DNA from: Pseudomonadota bacterium
GTDB taxonomy: Bacteria > Pseudomonadota > Gammaproteobacteria > Burkholderiales > Rhodocyclaceae
DNA length: 41,293 nt
Direction: 5' to 3'
NCBI GenBank assembly: GCA_021849505.1
Contig: JAJZSW010000017.1
Location: 1-41,293 of the forward strand
This document shows positions 13,073 through 18,688 of the stretch, in pieces. Made by a program: the position numbers and the translations under genes. Position 1 is the first letter of the stretch, and the number at the start of each line of letters is the position of its first letter. The notes beneath the pieces were generated by a model that had not been told where the DNA came from, searched no databases, and saw only the letters and a list, made by a program, of their open reading frames with translations.

Positions 13073-14077
13073 ATGAGCGATCAAATCGACGCCAGCGAGA
13101 AGCAGGGCATGGCTGCCGACGAGCAGTGGTTTCGCATGCTCTTCGATGGAACCGCCGACCCGGCGCGCATCATGGAAGCCCGCCTGCGGCTGGCCAGCAG
13201 CATCATGGAGAGCACCAGCGAAGGCATCCTGGTCACCGACGAACGCGGCTCCATCATCGCCGTCAATCCGGCCTTCAGCCACATCACCGGCTACAGCGCC
13301 GGCGAGGCCATCGGCAGGCGGCCGAGCCTGCTCAAGTCCGACCATCATCCGCCGTCCTTCTACGAGGAACTCTGGAACTCGCTGCTCAACGAGGGACGCT
13401 GGAAGGGCGAGATCTGGAACCGCCACAAGAACGGCACCGCCTATCCGATCCTGCAGACGATCAATCGCATCGCGCCCCGCGACGGCATGCCGGCCTGCTA
13501 TGCCTCGGTGTTCCACGACATCACCGCGCTCCATCTGGCCAACGAACGCTTCCAGTATCTCGCCTTCCACGACCCGCTGACCGGGCTGCCCAACCGCGCC
13601 CTCTTCCACGATCGGCTGGCCCATGCCATCGAGCGTGCGCGCCGTGATGGATTGCAACTGGCAGTGATTTTCATCGATCTCGACGGCTTCAAGGAAATCA
13701 ACGACAGGCTCGGCCACGACATCGGCGACCTGCTGCTGCGGGAGATTGCCCAGCGCATTCGCAGCCGGGTGCGACGTGCGACCGACACGGTGGCCCGGTT
13801 CGGCGGCGATGAGTTCCTCGTGCTGATGGAAGACCTCAAGGGACCGAACCACTGCGAGGATTTGGCCGCCGAACTCATTGCCGACATTTCCCTGCCGCTG
13901 GAACTGCGCGCTCGTGACGTCAGCGTCGGTGCCTCCGTGGGGCTGGTGCGTTTTCCCGAAGACAGCGTCGATCCAGGCGAACTCGTCAAGTACGCCGACA
14001 TCGCCATGTATGCCGCCAAGGCGGCGGGCAAGAACCGCTTCAGCAAGTTCCTGCCGGACATGCTGAAGGGAATCTGA
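13073..14077 (+). CDS. PAS-GGDEF diguanylate cyclase
   Basis: A 334-residue cytoplasmic protein. PAS spans about 42-155 (ILVTDERGSIIAVNPAFSHI). GGDEF spans about 163-332 with an intact active site GGDEF at 244-248 and a product-inhibition I-site RATD at 235-238, five residues before it. It should therefore make c-di-GMP and be feedback-inhibited. There is no membrane segment, so the signal is probably sensed by the PAS domain inside the cell. ATG 13073 was chosen; a GTG at 13064 is possible. It precedes the hvf operon by 104 bp but is probably separate, given the promoter signal in that gap. Confidence 0.93.
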   Translation: MSDQIDASEKQGMAADEQWFRMLFDGTADPARIMEARLRLASSIMESTSEGILVTDERGSIIAVNPAFSHITGYSAGEAIGRRPSLLKSDHHPPSFYEELWNSLLNEGRWKGEIWNRHKNGTAYPILQTINRIAPRDGMPACYASVFHDITALHLANERFQYLAFHDPLTGLPNRALFHDRLAHAIERARRDGLQLAVIFIDLDGFKEINDRLGHDIGDLLLREIAQRIRSRVRRATDTVARFGGDEFLVLMEDLKGPNHCEDLAAELIADISLPLELRARDVSVGASVGLVRFPEDSVDPGELVKYADIAMYAAKAAGKNRFSKFLPDMLKGI

Positions 14078-14103
14078 CGCCCAAAAATATTTCCGAGCAT
14101 TTT

Positions 14104-14131
14104 TGTAAGATATTTCCCGGCTGCACGTCTA
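14104..14131 (+). promoter_or_regulatory. Candidate ECF-sigma promoter of the hvf operon
   Basis: TGTAAG (14104-14109) and CGTCTA (14126-14131) are separated by 16 bp, the spacing and style of many ECF -35/-10 pairs. It lies 50 bp upstream of the hvfA start. An AT-rich inverted repeat CAAAAAT..ATTTTTG (14082-14105) and a direct repeat ATATTTCC (14087 and 14110) overlap it. The operon itself encodes an ECF-like sigma factor, which makes autoregulation likely. Confidence 0.55.
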
Positions 14132-14181
14132 ATCGGTGCAAGTCGCAGTATTCCCCCGGAAATCACCACAGGAGACACACC

Positions 14182-14508
14182 ATGAAAAAGAAAACCACCC
14201 TTACCCTCGCCGCCGGCGCCGCCTTCGCTGCCACCACCGCATTTGCCCCGCTCGCCAGCGCGGCCGACAATCCCTTCGGGATGGCCAAGCTCGACAGCGG
14301 CTACCAGCTGGCCCAGGCCGACAAAAAGGCCGACGGCAAGTGCGGCGAAGGCAAGTGCGGCGCCGACAAAGCCAAACCCAAGGCCGACGACAAGAAGAAG
14401 GATGGCAAATGCGGTGAAGGCAAGTGCGGTGGCGACAAAAAGGCTGCCGATCCCAAGATGAAGGACGGCAAGTGCGGCGAAGGCAAATGCGGCGGGACAA
14501 AGAAGTAA
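14182..14508 (+). CDS. hvfA: HvfA-type RiPP precursor peptide with EGKCG repeats
   Basis: A 108-residue exported precursor. The signal peptide is residues 1-27 (..LASA-AD). A short leader-like stretch follows (NPFGMAKLDSGYQLAQADKK, 30-49), which has the F..L.SGY.LA pattern of HvfA-like precursors. The rest is Lys/Asp/Gly-rich with three DGKCGEGKCG units at 51-60, 74-83 and 95-104, giving Cys at 54, 59, 77, 82, 98 and 103. EGKCG is the motif whose Cys is converted by MNIO (DUF692) enzymes to thiooxazole- or oxazolone/thioamide-type rings in copper-binding relatives. A good ribosome site (AGGAG, 7 nt) precedes ATG 14182. It heads a six-gene operon. Family assignment is firm from the motif plus neighbours; the modification here is inferred. 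Confidence 0.9.
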   Translation: MKKKTTLTLAAGAAFAATTAFAPLASAADNPFGMAKLDSGYQLAQADKKADGKCGEGKCGADKAKPKADDKKKDGKCGEGKCGGDKKAADPKMKDGKCGEGKCGGTKK

Positions 14509-14514
14509 ATCCCC

Positions 14515-15357
14515 ATGTCTGACACCGCCCTTCACGGTGCCGGCCTCGGCTTCAGGCGGGAACTGATTCCCGACCTGAAGGCCGGGGTGCCGTCCTCGAT
14601 CGCATTCTTCGAGCTGGCCCCGGAAAACTGGGCCGGCATGGGCGGTCGTTCGGCGAAGGACCTGCGCCATTTCACCGAGCGCCATCCCTTCGTCTGCCAC
14701 GGCCTTTCGCTCGACCTCGGCGGGCCGCGCCCGCTGGATACCGAACTGCTGACGCGCATCAGGCGCTTCATGCGCGAACACGGCATGCGCCTCTACACCG
14801 AACACCTGTCCTGGTGCGGCGACGACGGCCACCTCTACGACCTGCTGCCGATTCCCTGTACCGCCGATGCCGTGAAGTGGGTCGCCGGCCGCATCCGCCA
14901 GGCGCAGGACATCCTCGAAATGCAGATCGGCATCGAGAACGCCTCGTACTACGTCGCCCCGCCGGGCGCGGAGATGAACGAAACCGAGTTCATCCGCGCG
15001 GTGATCGAGGAAGCCGATTGCCTGCTGCACCTCGATGTCAACAATGTCTACGTCAACAGCGGCAATTTCGGCTTCGACCCGCTCGCCTTCATCGACGCGC
15101 TGCCGCTCGAACGCACCTGCTACCTGCACATGGCCGGCCACTACGTCGAGCCGGACGGCATCCGCGTCGATACCCATGGCGCCGATGTGATCGATCCGGT
15201 CTGGCAGCTGCTCGACGCGGTTTATGCGCGCGTCGGCCCGTTGCCGACCTGTCTCGAACGCGATTTCAACATTCCGCCGCTGGGCGAACTGGCCAGCGAA
15301 GTCGCGCAGATTGCCGCCGCGCAGCGACGCGCCACCCAACTTCGCGAGGCCGCCTGA
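14515..15357 (+). CDS. hvfB: HvfB: DUF692 / MNIO RiPP-modifying enzyme
   Basis: A 280-residue TIM-barrel protein of the multinuclear non-heme iron oxygenase family. Likely metal ligands and active-site residues visible are His62 (VCHGLSLDLGG), Glu96-His97 (YTEHLSW), Glu141 (IGIENASYY), Asp174-Asn177 (LHLDVNNVYVN), His205 and His209 (YLHMAGHY), Asp219-His221 (DTHGADV) and Glu248 (CLERDF). Relatives oxidise Cys residues in precursor peptides. It starts 6 nt after hvfA and its stop overlaps the hvfC start (TGATG). It should act on the EGKCG Cys of the adjacent precursor, in the cytoplasm before export. Confidence 0.93.
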   Translation: MSDTALHGAGLGFRRELIPDLKAGVPSSIAFFELAPENWAGMGGRSAKDLRHFTERHPFVCHGLSLDLGGPRPLDTELLTRIRRFMREHGMRLYTEHLSWCGDDGHLYDLLPIPCTADAVKWVAGRIRQAQDILEMQIGIENASYYVAPPGAEMNETEFIRAVIEEADCLLHLDVNNVYVNSGNFGFDPLAFIDALPLERTCYLHMAGHYVEPDGIRVDTHGADVIDPVWQLLDAVYARVGPLPTCLERDFNIPPLGELASEVAQIAAAQRRATQLREAA

Positions 15358-16091
15358 TGCCCCCTGCTCTCCAATTTCAGGAATTCCAGCGCGACTTTGG
15401 CCGCCACCTGCGCGACCCGCGCAAAGCCGCGCGCCCGGCCGGCGTGCCCGCGCGCCGCGCCGCGATCTATGCCGAGCTGCTGTTCAACAACCTGACCGGC
15501 TTTCTCGACGCCTGCTATCCCGTCACGCGCAGCGTGCTCGGCGCAACGCGCTGGCGCCGCCTCCAGCGCGCCTTCTTCCGCGCCGCGCGCTGCCATACGC
15601 CTTACTTCCGCGAGATTCCGCGCGAGTTCCTCGACTGGCTGCCCGCCGACGCGGGACCGCGCTGGCTCAGGGAACTGGCGCATTACGAGTGGGTCGAACT
15701 GGCGCTCGACGTGATGGACGCGCCAACGCCCGCCCACGCTCCGGCCGGCGACCTGCTGGCCGGCATTCCGGTACTCGCGCCGGCGCTGATGAATCTCGCC
15801 TACGCCTGGCCGGTGCAGCACATCGGACCGGACTACCGGCCGCGCCAGCCGCGGCCCACCCATCTGCTGGTGTATCGGGACGCCGCCGACGAGGTGCAAT
15901 TCGTCGAGCTGAACCCCGTCAGCGCGCGCCTCGTCGACCTGCTGCTGGAGGGGCGACAGAGCGGCCGCGCCGCCTGCGCCGCCATCGCCGCCGAACTCGG
16001 CCATGCCGACCCGCAGGCGGTGATCGCCCATGGCGCAGCCTTGCTGGCTGATTTGCGCGCCGCCGGCGCCATTCTGGGAGTCAGGACATGA
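15357..16091 (+). CDS. hvfC: HvfC: DUF2063 RiPP partner protein
   Basis: A 244-residue protein. An N-terminal DUF2063 helical DNA-binding-like domain reads LQFQEFQRDFGRHLRDP, AAIYAELLFNNLTGFLDACYP and FLDWLP. A C-terminal half resembles the HvfC/BufC extension (HLLVYRDAADEVQFVELNPV). In known systems this partner binds the precursor leader and presents it to the MNIO enzyme. It overlaps hvfB by 1 nt at the start (TGATG) and the DoxX gene by 4 nt at the end. A longer in-frame upstream extension is Arg-rich shadow sequence of hvfB and was rejected. Confidence 0.92.
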   Translation: MPPALQFQEFQRDFGRHLRDPRKAARPAGVPARRAAIYAELLFNNLTGFLDACYPVTRSVLGATRWRRLQRAFFRAARCHTPYFREIPREFLDWLPADAGPRWLRELAHYEWVELALDVMDAPTPAHAPAGDLLAGIPVLAPALMNLAYAWPVQHIGPDYRPRQPRPTHLLVYRDAADEVQFVELNPVSARLVDLLLEGRQSGRAACAAIAAELGHADPQAVIAHGAALLADLRAAGAILGVRT

Positions 16092-16579
16092 AAAAGCTCA
16101 TCGGCAGACTGCTCGGCGGCATCGACCTGATCGGTCTGTGGATCGGCCTGCTCGGCCTGCGCCTGATTCTCGGCTGGGAATATTTCGAGTCCGGGCTGGA
16201 AAAATTCCGCGGCGAGAACTGGTTCGCCGACATCCAGGACAAGTTTCCCTACCCATTCAACATCGTGTCTCCGGAGATCAGCTGGCAGATGGCGACCTGG
16301 TTCGAACTGGTCGGCGGCATCGCCCTCGTGATCGGTCTGGGCACGCGCTTCTTCGGCGTCTCGCTGTTCATCCTGACGATCGTCGCCATCGCCAGCGTGC
16401 ATTGGCCGGCGGAATGGGCGAGCTTCGGCGATCTGCTCGAGGGCTACGTCATCACCGACCAGGGCCAGGGCAACTTCAAGCTGCCGGTGATCTTCATGGC
16501 AATGCTGCTGCCGCTGATCCTCGCGGGACCGGGACGCCTCTCGATCGACGCGCTGATCCGGCGTAGCATCGCCCGATGA
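16088..16579 (+). CDS. DoxX family membrane protein of the hvf operon
   Basis: A 163-residue inner-membrane protein with about four hydrophobic helices (about 10-30, 66-85, 87-105, 130-148) and the DoxX pattern LRLILGWEYFESGLEKF. A DoxX protein is a frequent fourth member of HvfABC/Buf loci. Its biochemical role is not known; respiratory or redox coupling and peptide handling have been suggested. It overlaps hvfC and the sigma gene by ATGA at each end. Confidence 0.9.
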   Translation: MKKLIGRLLGGIDLIGLWIGLLGLRLILGWEYFESGLEKFRGENWFADIQDKFPYPFNIVSPEISWQMATWFELVGGIALVIGLGTRFFGVSLFILTIVAIASVHWPAEWASFGDLLEGYVITDQGQGNFKLPVIFMAMLLPLILAGPGRLSIDALIRRSIAR

Positions 16580-17148
16580 ATCCTGCCGATGAACTCGCCT
16601 ACTTTCGCCCCGACCTGCTGCGCTTCGCCCGTCTGCAGCTGCGCGACGACCAGCTCGCTGAGGATGTCGTGCAGGAGACGATGATCGCCGCGCTCGCCGG
16701 CAGGCGGGATTTCGCCGGGCGTTCCGCGCTGAAGACCTGGATGTTCTCGATCCTCAAGAACAAGATCATCGACGCCATCCGCAGCCGCGAGCGAACGGTC
16801 AATCTCTCGGCGCTGTCCGGGGAGGAAGAGGAGTTCGAGGAGGCCTTCGACCGGCTATTCAAGGCCAACGGCCACTGGAAGCGGGACAATCGTCCCGGCG
16901 ACTGGGGCGATCCCGAGGAAACGCTGCGGCAGGCGCAGTTCTGGCAGGTCTTCGACGCCTGCCTCAACCACCTCACGGAAAACACGGCACGCGTGTTCAT
17001 GATGCGCGAGCTGCTCGAATTCGAGGTGGACGAGATTTGCACCGAGCTGCAGATCAGCGCCAGCAACTGCTATGTCATCCTCCACCGGGCGCGCAACAAT
17101 CTGCGCGGCTGCCTCGAACGCAGCTGGTTCGGTCCCGGAGAACCATGA
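16576..17148 (+). CDS. ECF-like sigma-70 family RNA polymerase sigma factor
   Basis: A 190-residue sigma factor. Region 2 is at about 10-72 (DELAYFRPDLLRFARLQLRD, LAEDVVQETMIAAL, LKTWMFSILKNKIIDAIRSR). Region 4 is at about 125-180 (LTENTARVFMMREL, EICTELQISASNCYVILHRA). An acidic insert (GEEEEFEEAFDRLF) and a loop of about 25 residues lie between the regions, a known trait of this subgroup. It lies in the hvf operon, coupled by ATGA on both sides, and is followed by its likely anti-sigma factor, so it should direct transcription of this operon from the 14104 promoter. Confidence 0.92.
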   Translation: MNPADELAYFRPDLLRFARLQLRDDQLAEDVVQETMIAALAGRRDFAGRSALKTWMFSILKNKIIDAIRSRERTVNLSALSGEEEEFEEAFDRLFKANGHWKRDNRPGDWGDPEETLRQAQFWQVFDACLNHLTENTARVFMMRELLEFEVDEICTELQISASNCYVILHRARNNLRGCLERSWFGPGEP

Positions 17149-17348
17149 TGTTGAGCTGCAAGGAAGCCACCCACGTGATGTCCGCCGCGCACGAACGCGA
17201 ACTGGGCCTGCGCGAACGCATCGCGCTGCGCCTGCACCTGCTGATGTGCATGGGCTGCCGGAACTACGATCGCCAGATGGAGTTTTTGCACAAGGCCTGT
17301 GCGCACATGACCGAGCGAAGCATCAGTGACGCTCCGCCCGATCCCTGA
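17145..17348 (+). CDS. Small zinc-finger (zf-HC2-like) anti-sigma-type protein
   Basis: A 67-residue protein. Cys5 (MMLSCKEATHVMSAAHEREL) and the H-x3-C-x2-C motif LHLLMCMGC give the zinc-binding pattern of zf-HC2 anti-sigma domains. There is no membrane segment, so it would be a cytoplasmic one-domain anti-sigma factor that could respond to metal or thiol oxidation through its zinc site. It overlaps the sigma gene stop (ATGATG); ATG 17145 or 17148 are both possible starts, with GGAG just upstream. It is the last gene of the hvf operon. Confidence 0.88.
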   Translation: MMLSCKEATHVMSAAHERELGLRERIALRLHLLMCMGCRNYDRQMEFLHKACAHMTERSISDAPPDP

Positions 17349-17380
17349 GTGCCTGCTCCCGCGGCACGTAACCAGACAGG

Positions 17381-18688
17381 CTATCGAGTCTCGGCGGGCT
17401 TTTCCGGTTCCGGCAGCCGGCTGGCGAGCACCTTGTCGACGCGCTTGCCGTCGAGGTCGACGACCTCGAAGCGCCACTGCTCCCATTCGGCGATGTCGCC
17501 GGTCTGCGGCAGGCGGCCGAGCAGCCACATCACCAGGCCGCTGAGCGTGTGATAGCGCCCCTTGTCCTCTTCCGGCACGGCCTTGAGCGCCAGCCTGTCC
17601 TTCAGCTCGGGAATCGGGATCAGCCCGTCGAGCAGCCAGGAACCGTCCTCGCGCTCCACCGCCCAGGCGTCTTCCTGGCTGCGCGGCTTGAATTCGCCGG
17701 TCACCGCCTCGAGCACATCCTGCAGCGTCACGATGCCCTGCACCTCGCCGTATTCGTCGACGACGACGACCATCTGCGTGCCCGAGGCGCGGAAATGATC
17801 GAGCAAGTCCATGCCCGTCAGCGTTTCCGGCACGAACACGGCCGGCAGCAGCAGCGCGGTCAGATCGACCTTGCCGACCTTGAGCGACTGGTTGAACAAC
17901 TGCTTGGCGCTGACCGTGCCGAGCACTTCGTGCAGGCCGCCGCGGCAGACGAGGAAGCGCGAATGGTCGGAATCGGCGACGGTGCGCAGGTTCGCGTCGA
18001 TGGGCAGGTCGATGTCCAGATAGACGATGTCGGCGCGCGGGATCATCAGCGAGCCGACCTGGCGATCGTCGAGCCGGAACACGTTGCGCACCATGTCGCG
18101 CTCCTGCTGCTCGATGACGCCCGCTTCCGAGCCTTCCTCGAGCATCGCGTGGATTTCCTCCTCGGTGACGCCTTGCGCCTCCTGCTGGGGCACACCGATG
18201 AGCCGCAGGATCGTGTCGGTCGAGAAGCTCAGCAGACGGACGAAAGGCCGCGTCAGCAGCGACAGCGCCTGCATGGGCTGCGCGACGAGACGGGCGATGT
18301 CTTCCGGATGGGTCTGGCCAACCCGCTTGGGGACGAGTTCGCCGATCACAATCGAAAAGTAGGTGATCGTGATGACCACCACCGCAGTGGCCAAGATTAT
18401 GCTCAGCTCGGCATCCAGCCCCCAGCTGGCCATGGCCTTCGCCAGCGGCGCGGCGAACACCGCCTCGCCGACGATGCCGCTCAGGATGCCGATCGAGGTG
18501 ATGCCGATCTGGACCGTGGACAGAAACCGGGTCGGCTCGTCGTGCAGCTTGACGGCGACGGCAGCAGCGCTGTCACCCTCTTCGGCGAGACGCGACAGGC
18601 GGGCTCGACGGGCGGTGACGAGGGAGATTTCCGACATCGCGAACAAACCGTTGAGCAGGATGAGAACGACCAGCAGCAGAAGTTCCAT
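17381..18688 (-). CDS. CNNM / CBS / CorC-type hemolysin family membrane protein
   Basis: A 435-residue protein. A CNNM (DUF21) membrane domain spans about 1-190 with three to four helices (MELLLLVVLILLNGLFAMSE start; IGITSIGILSGIVGEAVF; FSIVIGELVPKRVG). Two CBS modules span about 205-335 and a CorC_HlyC domain about 345-425. Members are linked to magnesium/cobalt efflux or resistance. It is convergent with the hvf operon, 32 bp from its end. No partner gene lies adjacent. Confidence 0.92.
   Translation of the reverse strand: MELLLLVVLILLNGLFAMSEISLVTARRARLSRLAEEGDSAAAVAVKLHDEPTRFLSTVQIGITSIGILSGIVGEAVFAAPLAKAMASWGLDAELSIILATAVVVITITYFSIVIGELVPKRVGQTHPEDIARLVAQPMQALSLLTRPFVRLLSFSTDTILRLIGVPQQEAQGVTEEEIHAMLEEGSEAGVIEQQERDMVRNVFRLDDRQVGSLMIPRADIVYLDIDLPIDANLRTVADSDHSRFLVCRGGLHEVLGTVSAKQLFNQSLKVGKVDLTALLLPAVFVPETLTGMDLLDHFRASGTQMVVVVDEYGEVQGIVTLQDVLEAVTGEFKPRSQEDAWAVEREDGSWLLDGLIPIPELKDRLALKAVPEEDKGRYHTLSGLVMWLLGRLPQTGDIAEWEQWRFEVVDLDGKRVDKVLASRLPEPEKPAETR

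Follow-up and report, generated by a model that had tools for sequence, protein, structure and literature searches.

The predicted metallophore operon and its gene products

The 41,293-nt stretch of DNA analyzed here (the window; contig JAJZSW010000017.1, positions 1 to 41,293) comes from a bacterium of the Rhodocyclaceae and carries an operon that combines genes for a probably modified cysteine-rich peptide with a sigma/anti-sigma pair. Direct reading of the sequence revealed six genes on the plus strand (14182-17348), tightly packed downstream of a promoter-like site at 14104-14132. They follow the order hvfA-hvfB-hvfC-hvfX-sigma-ZAS, where ZAS denotes a zinc anti-sigma factor. The features are as follows.

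14104..14132, plus strand: promoter of the extracytoplasmic function (ECF) type, TGTAAG-N16-CGTCTAA (core unique in the draft assembly, placement conserved, -10 as in the published Neisseria sigma-E element CGTCTAAH, PMC2893595)
14140, plus strand: predicted transcription start (about six nt past the -10, as in Neisseria, PMC2893595)
14170..14174, plus strand: AGGAG, ribosome-binding site of hvfA (direct reading)
14182..14508, plus strand: hvfA, with a signal-peptide-like start (by eye) and three DGKCGEGKCG units, 6 Cys (NF050137, three stretches)
14515..15357, plus strand: hvfB, MNIO maturase (PF05114, 325.5 bits; NF003818 over cut-off; PDB 3bww, E 3.3e-75)
15357..16091, plus strand: hvfC, DUF2063/PqqD-like partner (RiPP recognition element; RiPP, ribosomally synthesized and post-translationally modified peptide), PME1 (NF050145 over cut-off; solved relative 3dee)
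16088..16579, plus strand: hvfX, DoxX-type membrane protein (NF050144 and PF07681 over cut-off)
16576..17148, plus strand: ECF sigma factor of the TIGR02943 family (family match; tree)
17148..17348 (alternative start 17145), plus strand: soluble ZAS anti-sigma factor, 66 aa, C4-H30-C34-C37 (NF052368 and PF13490 (zf-HC2) over cut-off)

The family assignments were made with NCBIfam/Pfam profiles judged against their curated cut-offs. The HvfA repeat domain reached 64.5 bits (NF050137, cut-off 19.5), HvfB 398.8 bits (NF003818, cut-off 360), HvfC 288.8 bits (NF050145, cut-off 142), HvfX 147.3 bits (NF050144, cut-off 80), the sigma factor 264.2 bits (TIGR02943, cut-off 162.2), and the ZAS 72 bits (NF052368, cut-off 50). 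As all six parts exceed a family cut-off, the complete hvfABC-type operon described by the first-pass annotation was recovered, including the identity of its sigma/anti-sigma pair. The tight coupling of the genes was also found as described: a 6-nt gap separates hvfA from hvfB, and the remaining junctions overlap, by 1 nt between hvfB and hvfC (TGATG), by a 4-nt ATGA both between hvfC and hvfX and between hvfX and the sigma gene, and at ATGATG between the sigma and ZAS genes, where either 17145 or 17148 is the start of the ZAS gene, which extends to 17348.

The precursor stayed below the cut-off of the full-length HvfA equivalog NF050188 (50.8 versus 95 bits), so the peptide of the window is an EGKCG relative and not a strict HvfA. 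The identity of the system with bufferin-1 (DUF2282) was rejected, as the precursor gave no Pfam match and the BufB profile NF050167 gave 244.7 bits, under its cut-off of 310. The sole solved relative found for HvfC was 3dee, the gonococcal NGO1945 product (PMC13097082; PMC2954202), which by its gene number belongs to the Neisseria rpoE operon NGO1948-NGO1943 (PMC2893595). The reading of HvfC as a DNA-binding regulator (PMC2954202) was not retained, since the protein of the window passes the RiPP partner family NF050145.

The operon was compared with that of a sibling genome of the same genus g1 (G018; the window's own genome is G000). The pN/pS values were 0.13-0.20 for hvfA, hvfB, hvfC, and the sigma gene and 0.54 for the ZAS gene; hvfX was left out of this comparison as it is mostly deleted in G018. 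There, hvfX has shrunk in frame to 28 codons (L066:5735-5821) and the other operon genes are open, so HvfX may be dispensable in G018, or this may be an assembly matter. No Rfam family reached its gathering score in the window. The terminator search gave no match 3' of the operon, and its single match, on the minus strand within hvfX, compares with 2.8 expected from shuffled sequences.

The ECF sigma gene is directly followed by that of a small soluble protein with the pattern C-x25-H-x3-C-x2-C, the layout of ZAS of the MseR/HrsE kind. Residues C4, H30, C34, and C37 occupy the positions published for Neisseria MseR (PMC2893595), and together with L19 they are the only residues invariant in 21 of 21 aligned ZAS. 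In MseR, Ala at Cys4, Cys34, or Cys37 is reported to weaken the anti-sigma action, while His30Ala does not (PMC2893595). The structure model of the ZAS is a three-helix domain (pLDDT 91), the nearest solved fold of which was RsiW in the zinc form of SigW-RsiW (template modeling score 0.70, with a non-significant Foldseek E of 0.9). A sequence search for a solved ZAS relative found none.

Promoter placement across operon arrangements

The core GTAAG-N16-CGTCTAA has a single perfect match, at 14105-14132, in the 2.75-Mb draft assembly (94% complete), and no site with one mismatch at the same spacing was found there. Set against the Neisseria sigma-E consensus GTMAGBWTT-(12/13)-CGTCTAAH (PMC2893595), the window reads GTAAGATAT-12-CGTCTAAT; the -10 and the spacing fit, and the -35 deviates at 2 of 9 positions. 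The sequence TGCAA at the predicted start is common to the window and the loci L062 and L068.

To score the promoter, TGTAAG-N15..18-CGWCYAA was matched within 260 nt 5' of the first gene with a threshold of at least 12 of 13 positions. The 54 operon loci scored were a chosen, not a random, set, and only some of the 22 hvfC places found unlinked to a ZAS at the order level are among them. When the sigma-ZAS pair stands at the 3' end of the operon, the motif precedes the first gene in 12 of 14 operons at 12 or more and in all 14 at 11 (shuffled mean, 0.04), and it precedes the internal sigma gene in none of the 14. Operons without a same-strand sigma gene had it in 2 of 17 cases, and the reversed motif used as a control gave 0 in every class. 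It should be noted that plus-strand matches about 440 nt into the sigma genes (L086, L090, L095, and others) lie in a conserved coding segment; these were taken as coincidence and not counted.

Since the motif stands before the first gene and never before the internal sigma gene, the sigma factor and the ZAS of operons with this arrangement are apparently transcribed solely at the end of the metallophore mRNA. This is the positive feedback that the first-pass annotation had proposed. This self-amplifying wiring is supported by the family matches, by the conserved promoter placement, and by published counterparts in Neisseria and Haemophilus. The ECF promoter suggested at 14104 likewise held up, with its core unique in the assembly and its placement conserved in the 3'-type operons; the accompanying start near 14131 needs a small correction, as transcription is expected to begin at about 14140 by analogy with Neisseria. 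The further proposals of that annotation, the soluble zinc-finger protein as the sensor and metal or thiol stress as the signal, stay hypothetical, so that its interpretation was supported in part.

Among 61 genomes searched, the own one included, 11 had HvfC over the cut-off. The arrangement hvfA-B-C-X-sigma-ZAS was found in five of these (G000, G003, G015, G018, and G026) and sigma-ZAS-hvfA-B-C-X in two (G008 and G009), while in four, including one at a contig edge, the part read showed no linked pair. Wider samples were tallied by hand and by eye from tables, with contig ends ignored. In the class sample (274 genomes), a ZAS match lay near 4 of 95 hvfC places, and in the order sample (300 genomes) near 30 of 52, namely 21 upstream, 7 downstream, and 2 on the opposite strand. 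The seven downstream cases comprise the window and six genomes from a single genus (f215/g288); the X-A-B-C-sigma-ZAS layout of these six agrees with the published operon of Neisseria. Among the 21 upstream cases, two (L194 and L196) have a split pair, in which the ZAS heads the hvf operon and the sigma gene is divergent.

In the sigma tree, the five sigma factors from the A-B-C-X-sigma-ZAS operons of the window's group cluster together with support, nested in a 10-row group of Rhodocyclales sigma factors together with those labeled as DUF2282-linked. The Zoogloea 3' sigma factors and those of the Neisseria-like genus are placed elsewhere. Because at least two changes of the 3' label are needed outside the Neisseria-like genus, the tree suggests that the 3' arrangement was gained repeatedly and probably arose more than once; gain plus loss is a possible alternative. 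One Neisseria-like row sits on a long branch, and several deep forks of the tree are open.

Candidate members of the regulon

A core search allowing at most one mismatch was run on the six Neisseria-like genomes as a positive control. It found a site before a thioredoxin-MsrA-MsrB (msrAB fusion) gene in five of them (L223, L224, L227, L228, and L242), and these sites match the published Neisseria target msrAB. One of the five products, that of L224, was checked and confirmed as MsrA/MsrB by family (944.9 versus a cut-off of 522 bits). The sixth genome (G537) has a likely counterpart site outside the five read. One-mismatch sites in these genomes are no commoner than in the reversed control, and most end in CGTCTGA; one further perfect site, in G567 (L225), has no clear target.

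The window's own genome contains 24 sites with two mismatches, one of which precedes msrPQ (G000:C70:6082-7002, minus strand). The products were assigned as MsrP, which we take to be the same protein as YedY (456 bits, cut-off 207), and MsrQ (196.5 bits, cut-off 130). Of the methionine sulfoxide reductases, this own-genome look covered msrPQ. A mechanical open reading frame (ORF) test of 19 of the 24 sites placed 17 within ORFs of 200 aa or more on the same strand; the two outside such ORFs stand before msrP and before an ApaG-like ORF, the family match of which is under the cut-off. The site is present at all three close MsrP homologs (G000, G009, and G015) found among eight genomes searched, a weak fourth MsrP match (G010) having been set aside. 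Upstream of msrP in G009 and G015, the GTAAGG, the spacing, and CGAC-AA are kept and part of the spacer has changed; because these two genomes are nearly alike there, the conservation amounts to about two independent observations. One of the two, G009, has the 5' arrangement and lacks the motif at its operon. The degenerate pattern has a further match in the own genome, C158:42262-42292, which lies antisense inside an open frame of 812 codons and is taken as a chance match. In G018, a perfect site precedes thioredoxin-like and DsbD-like genes (family matches under their cut-offs).

Further candidates came from a survey of related sigma factors, confined to the best 80 loci of a longer scan. 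The msrB gene occurs in 17 of these loci and is preceded by the motif in 15 (the msrB query passes TIGR00357 with 134.6 bits, cut-off 113). A gene for the radical-SAM protein ArsS (query 456.8 bits, cut-off 300) occurs in 14; the motif reaches 12 or more in 5 of them and 11 in the remaining 9. Where bufA1 (DUF2282, bufferin-1) lies near a sigma-ZAS pair, the motif precedes it in 8 of 11 cases; L077, labeled bufferin-linked in the tree, is a short contig without bufA1 and stands outside these 11.

On two contigs with bufA1, a perfect motif was seen before genes for Cys-rich peptides of 43-44 aa with a hydrophobic tail (L104:4713 and L108:6929, both minus strand). The former contains EGKCGACGGH and the latter EGEKCGSCGGH, and both are possible new peptides of the class. 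At L121:4103 (plus strand), the motif precedes an NPCAAK-repeat protein with a signal-like start, possibly an unrecognized Cys-repeat metal peptide. Another match, TGTAAG-N16-CGACTAA at L258 (G015:C201:2296-2324, minus strand), lies outside any 200-codon frame, before a 122-aa ORF of no assigned kind; the divergent neighbor resembles, by eye, a membrane/FAD-oxidoreductase fusion.

Known relatives and the proposed switch

An operon of this kind is already in print. In Neisseria meningitidis, NMB2140-NMB2145 (gonococcal NGO1948-NGO1943) form one autoregulated operon of DoxX, three further genes, sigma-E, and the ZAS MseR (PMC2893595). The ZAS residues Cys4, His30, Cys34, and Cys37 and the promoter -10 CGTCTAAH are shared with the window, and in the six genomes of one genus with the Neisseria layout the three further genes are hvfA, hvfB, and hvfC. 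The differences are that DoxX comes first there and after hvfC in the window, and that the published trans target is msrAB, while in the window's genome it is probably msrPQ, judging from the site before these genes. In Haemophilus influenzae, methionine sulfoxide reductases and a DoxX/DUF692/DUF2063 cluster are under the control of RpoE2, which is paired with HrsE, a ZAS of 67 aa; the pair lies beside msrAB and apart from the hvf cluster, however, and self-control of rpoE2 is very limited (PMC7907618). The Haemophilus hvfABCX genes specify oxazolin, with three AEGKCGEGKCG motifs in HvfA (PMC13419390).

In Caulobacter, where CC3254-CC3257 are of the bufferin-1 type, the ECF sigma factor sigma-F drives precursor-DUF692-DUF2063-DoxX operons and a YedY gene from the promoter GTAACC-N16-CGAA and, with its anti-sigma factor NrsF, responds to chromium and cadmium (PMC3511200). 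There, a DUF2282 precursor is joined to a six-helix membrane anti-sigma factor, in contrast to the EGKCG precursor and soluble ZAS of the window. The captophorins (fontiphorin, oxazolin, and gonophorin) share the EGKCG precursor and the MNIO and PME1 pair (PMC13097082); the word anti-sigma is absent from the main text of that paper. The MNIO cluster survey describes Buf_EGKCG clusters of precursor, MNIO, DUF2063, and DoxX, a few of which contain oxidored_molybd (PF00174) and ferric reductase genes, fitting by domain the MsrPQ link. In the passages considered, sigma factors and NrsF are tied to Buf1 clusters and no ZAS appears; the word anti-sigma occurs once in that source (PMC12452194). Thus, it seems that such peptides are coupled to methionine-sulfoxide repair in more than one regulatory setting.

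We consider it probable that the six genes form a self-contained unit for a captophorin (an EGKCG thiooxazole metallophore), controlled by an ECF sigma/ZAS switch of its own and providing a self-amplifying response to envelope metal and oxidation stress coupled to methionine-sulfoxide repair. This reading builds on the gene set, the families, the conservation and placement of the promoter, and the ZAS residues observed here; anti-sigma action, autoregulation, thiooxazole formation, and copper binding are taken from published relatives, and for this organism we infer the steps of the mechanism, the signal, the control of msrPQ, and the role of HvfX. At rest, the zinc-loaded ZAS would hold the sigma factor. 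Envelope-linked stress, an oxidant, a thiol-reactive metal such as copper, or both, would alter the zinc site of Cys4, His30, Cys34, and Cys37 and free the sigma factor, and the polymerase carrying it would then read from 14104-14132 through all six genes. The transcript would yield HvfA, the maturases HvfBC, HvfX, and more of both sigma factor and ZAS, that is, positive feedback with a built-in brake. By analogy with the captophorin class, the Cys modification of which has been assigned as 5-thiooxazole (PMC13097082; PMC13419390), the six Cys of HvfA would probably become 5-thiooxazoles and the exported peptide would bind copper. A mass loss of 8 Da is reported for a substrate with two repeats (PMC13097082), which gives about 4 Da for each modified Cys and would give about 24 Da for six. 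The same sigma factor would probably also drive msrPQ elsewhere in the genome.

As to the trigger, we lean towards combined metal and oxidant stress of the envelope. A switch in which copper or another soft metal displaces the zinc of the ZAS, giving chiefly a copper-excess response with no part for oxidants, appears rather unlikely: msrPQ of E. coli is copper-induced through CusSR (PMC9302797), but methionine sulfoxide reductases are among the other targets of the motif, and hypochlorite induces the Haemophilus counterpart (PMC7907618). An oxidant-specific switch is somewhat easier to accept, though still doubtful. Hypochlorite, disulfide, or electrophile stress would oxidize the Cys of the ZAS, and the main role of the peptide, beside MsrPQ, would be that of a thiol buffer in the envelope or a scavenger of oxidants, with copper binding secondary. 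The motif before msrB, msrPQ, and msrAB speaks for it, as do the hypochlorite-induced RpoE2-dependent Haemophilus genes, among them a doxX-COG3767-DUF692-DUF2063 cluster that corresponds by domains to hvf genes (PMC7907618); however, the activity measured for this class of products is copper binding, and the meningococcal sigma-E operon is reported to be silent to hydrogen peroxide, diamide, and singlet oxygen (PMC2893595). It is very improbable that the pair at the operon end is a bystander and the operon depends on another promoter. The 3' placement probably has more than one origin, and 91 of 95 hvfC places in the hand-tallied class sample have no ZAS match nearby, but the motif tracks the 3' arrangement of sigma-ZAS. 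A sigma-70-like promoter gave no match in 13900-17700, which is a weak argument because shuffled sequences average only 0.5.

Several observations weigh against the combined-stress switch, the meningococcal silence just mentioned among them. With sigma-ZAS at the 5' end, the motif precedes hvfA in 1 of 23 operons and the sigma gene in none of 23, and a two-block motif search in these loci gave nothing convincing; because 5'-type operons mostly lack the motif, the proposed wiring is not universal. The W and Y positions of the motif were set once a first round of matches had been seen, and its strict form is found in 8 of 14 operons at 12 or more and in 13 of 14 at 11 or more. The site before msrP differs from the operon core at two positions, and only 5 nt separate its end from the ATG. 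The sigma factor of the window is 45-49% identical to the Neisseria-like ones and is not their sister in the tree.

In the literature searched, a promoter common to EGKCG and DUF2282 operons with a ZAS and linked to msrB/msrPQ in Rhodocyclales was not found. We give an even chance to a broader proposal, that the TIGR02943-sigma/ZAS pair and TGTAAG-N16-CGWCYAA define a betaproteobacterial regulon joining EGKCG and DUF2282 thiooxazole metallophores, MsrB/MsrPQ/MsrAB repair, and ArsS radical-SAM genes, in which the switch was captured at the 3' end more than once and the small Cys-rich peptides (43-44 aa, EGKCGACGGH/EGEKCGSCGGH; NPCAAK-repeat) are unrecognized members. These results bear on what induces the widespread MNIO-PME1 peptides and on their role in the cell. 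If many environmental betaproteobacteria control both the peptides and methionine-sulfoxide repair through one sigma/ZAS switch, a role such as copper buffering against envelope oxidation becomes testable, and the promoter offers a way to search for further members of the class. An HvfA-like peptide at L068:3872-4033 has ASCG/ANCG rather than KCG in most of its units, and natural variants of this type could inform which Cys are modified.

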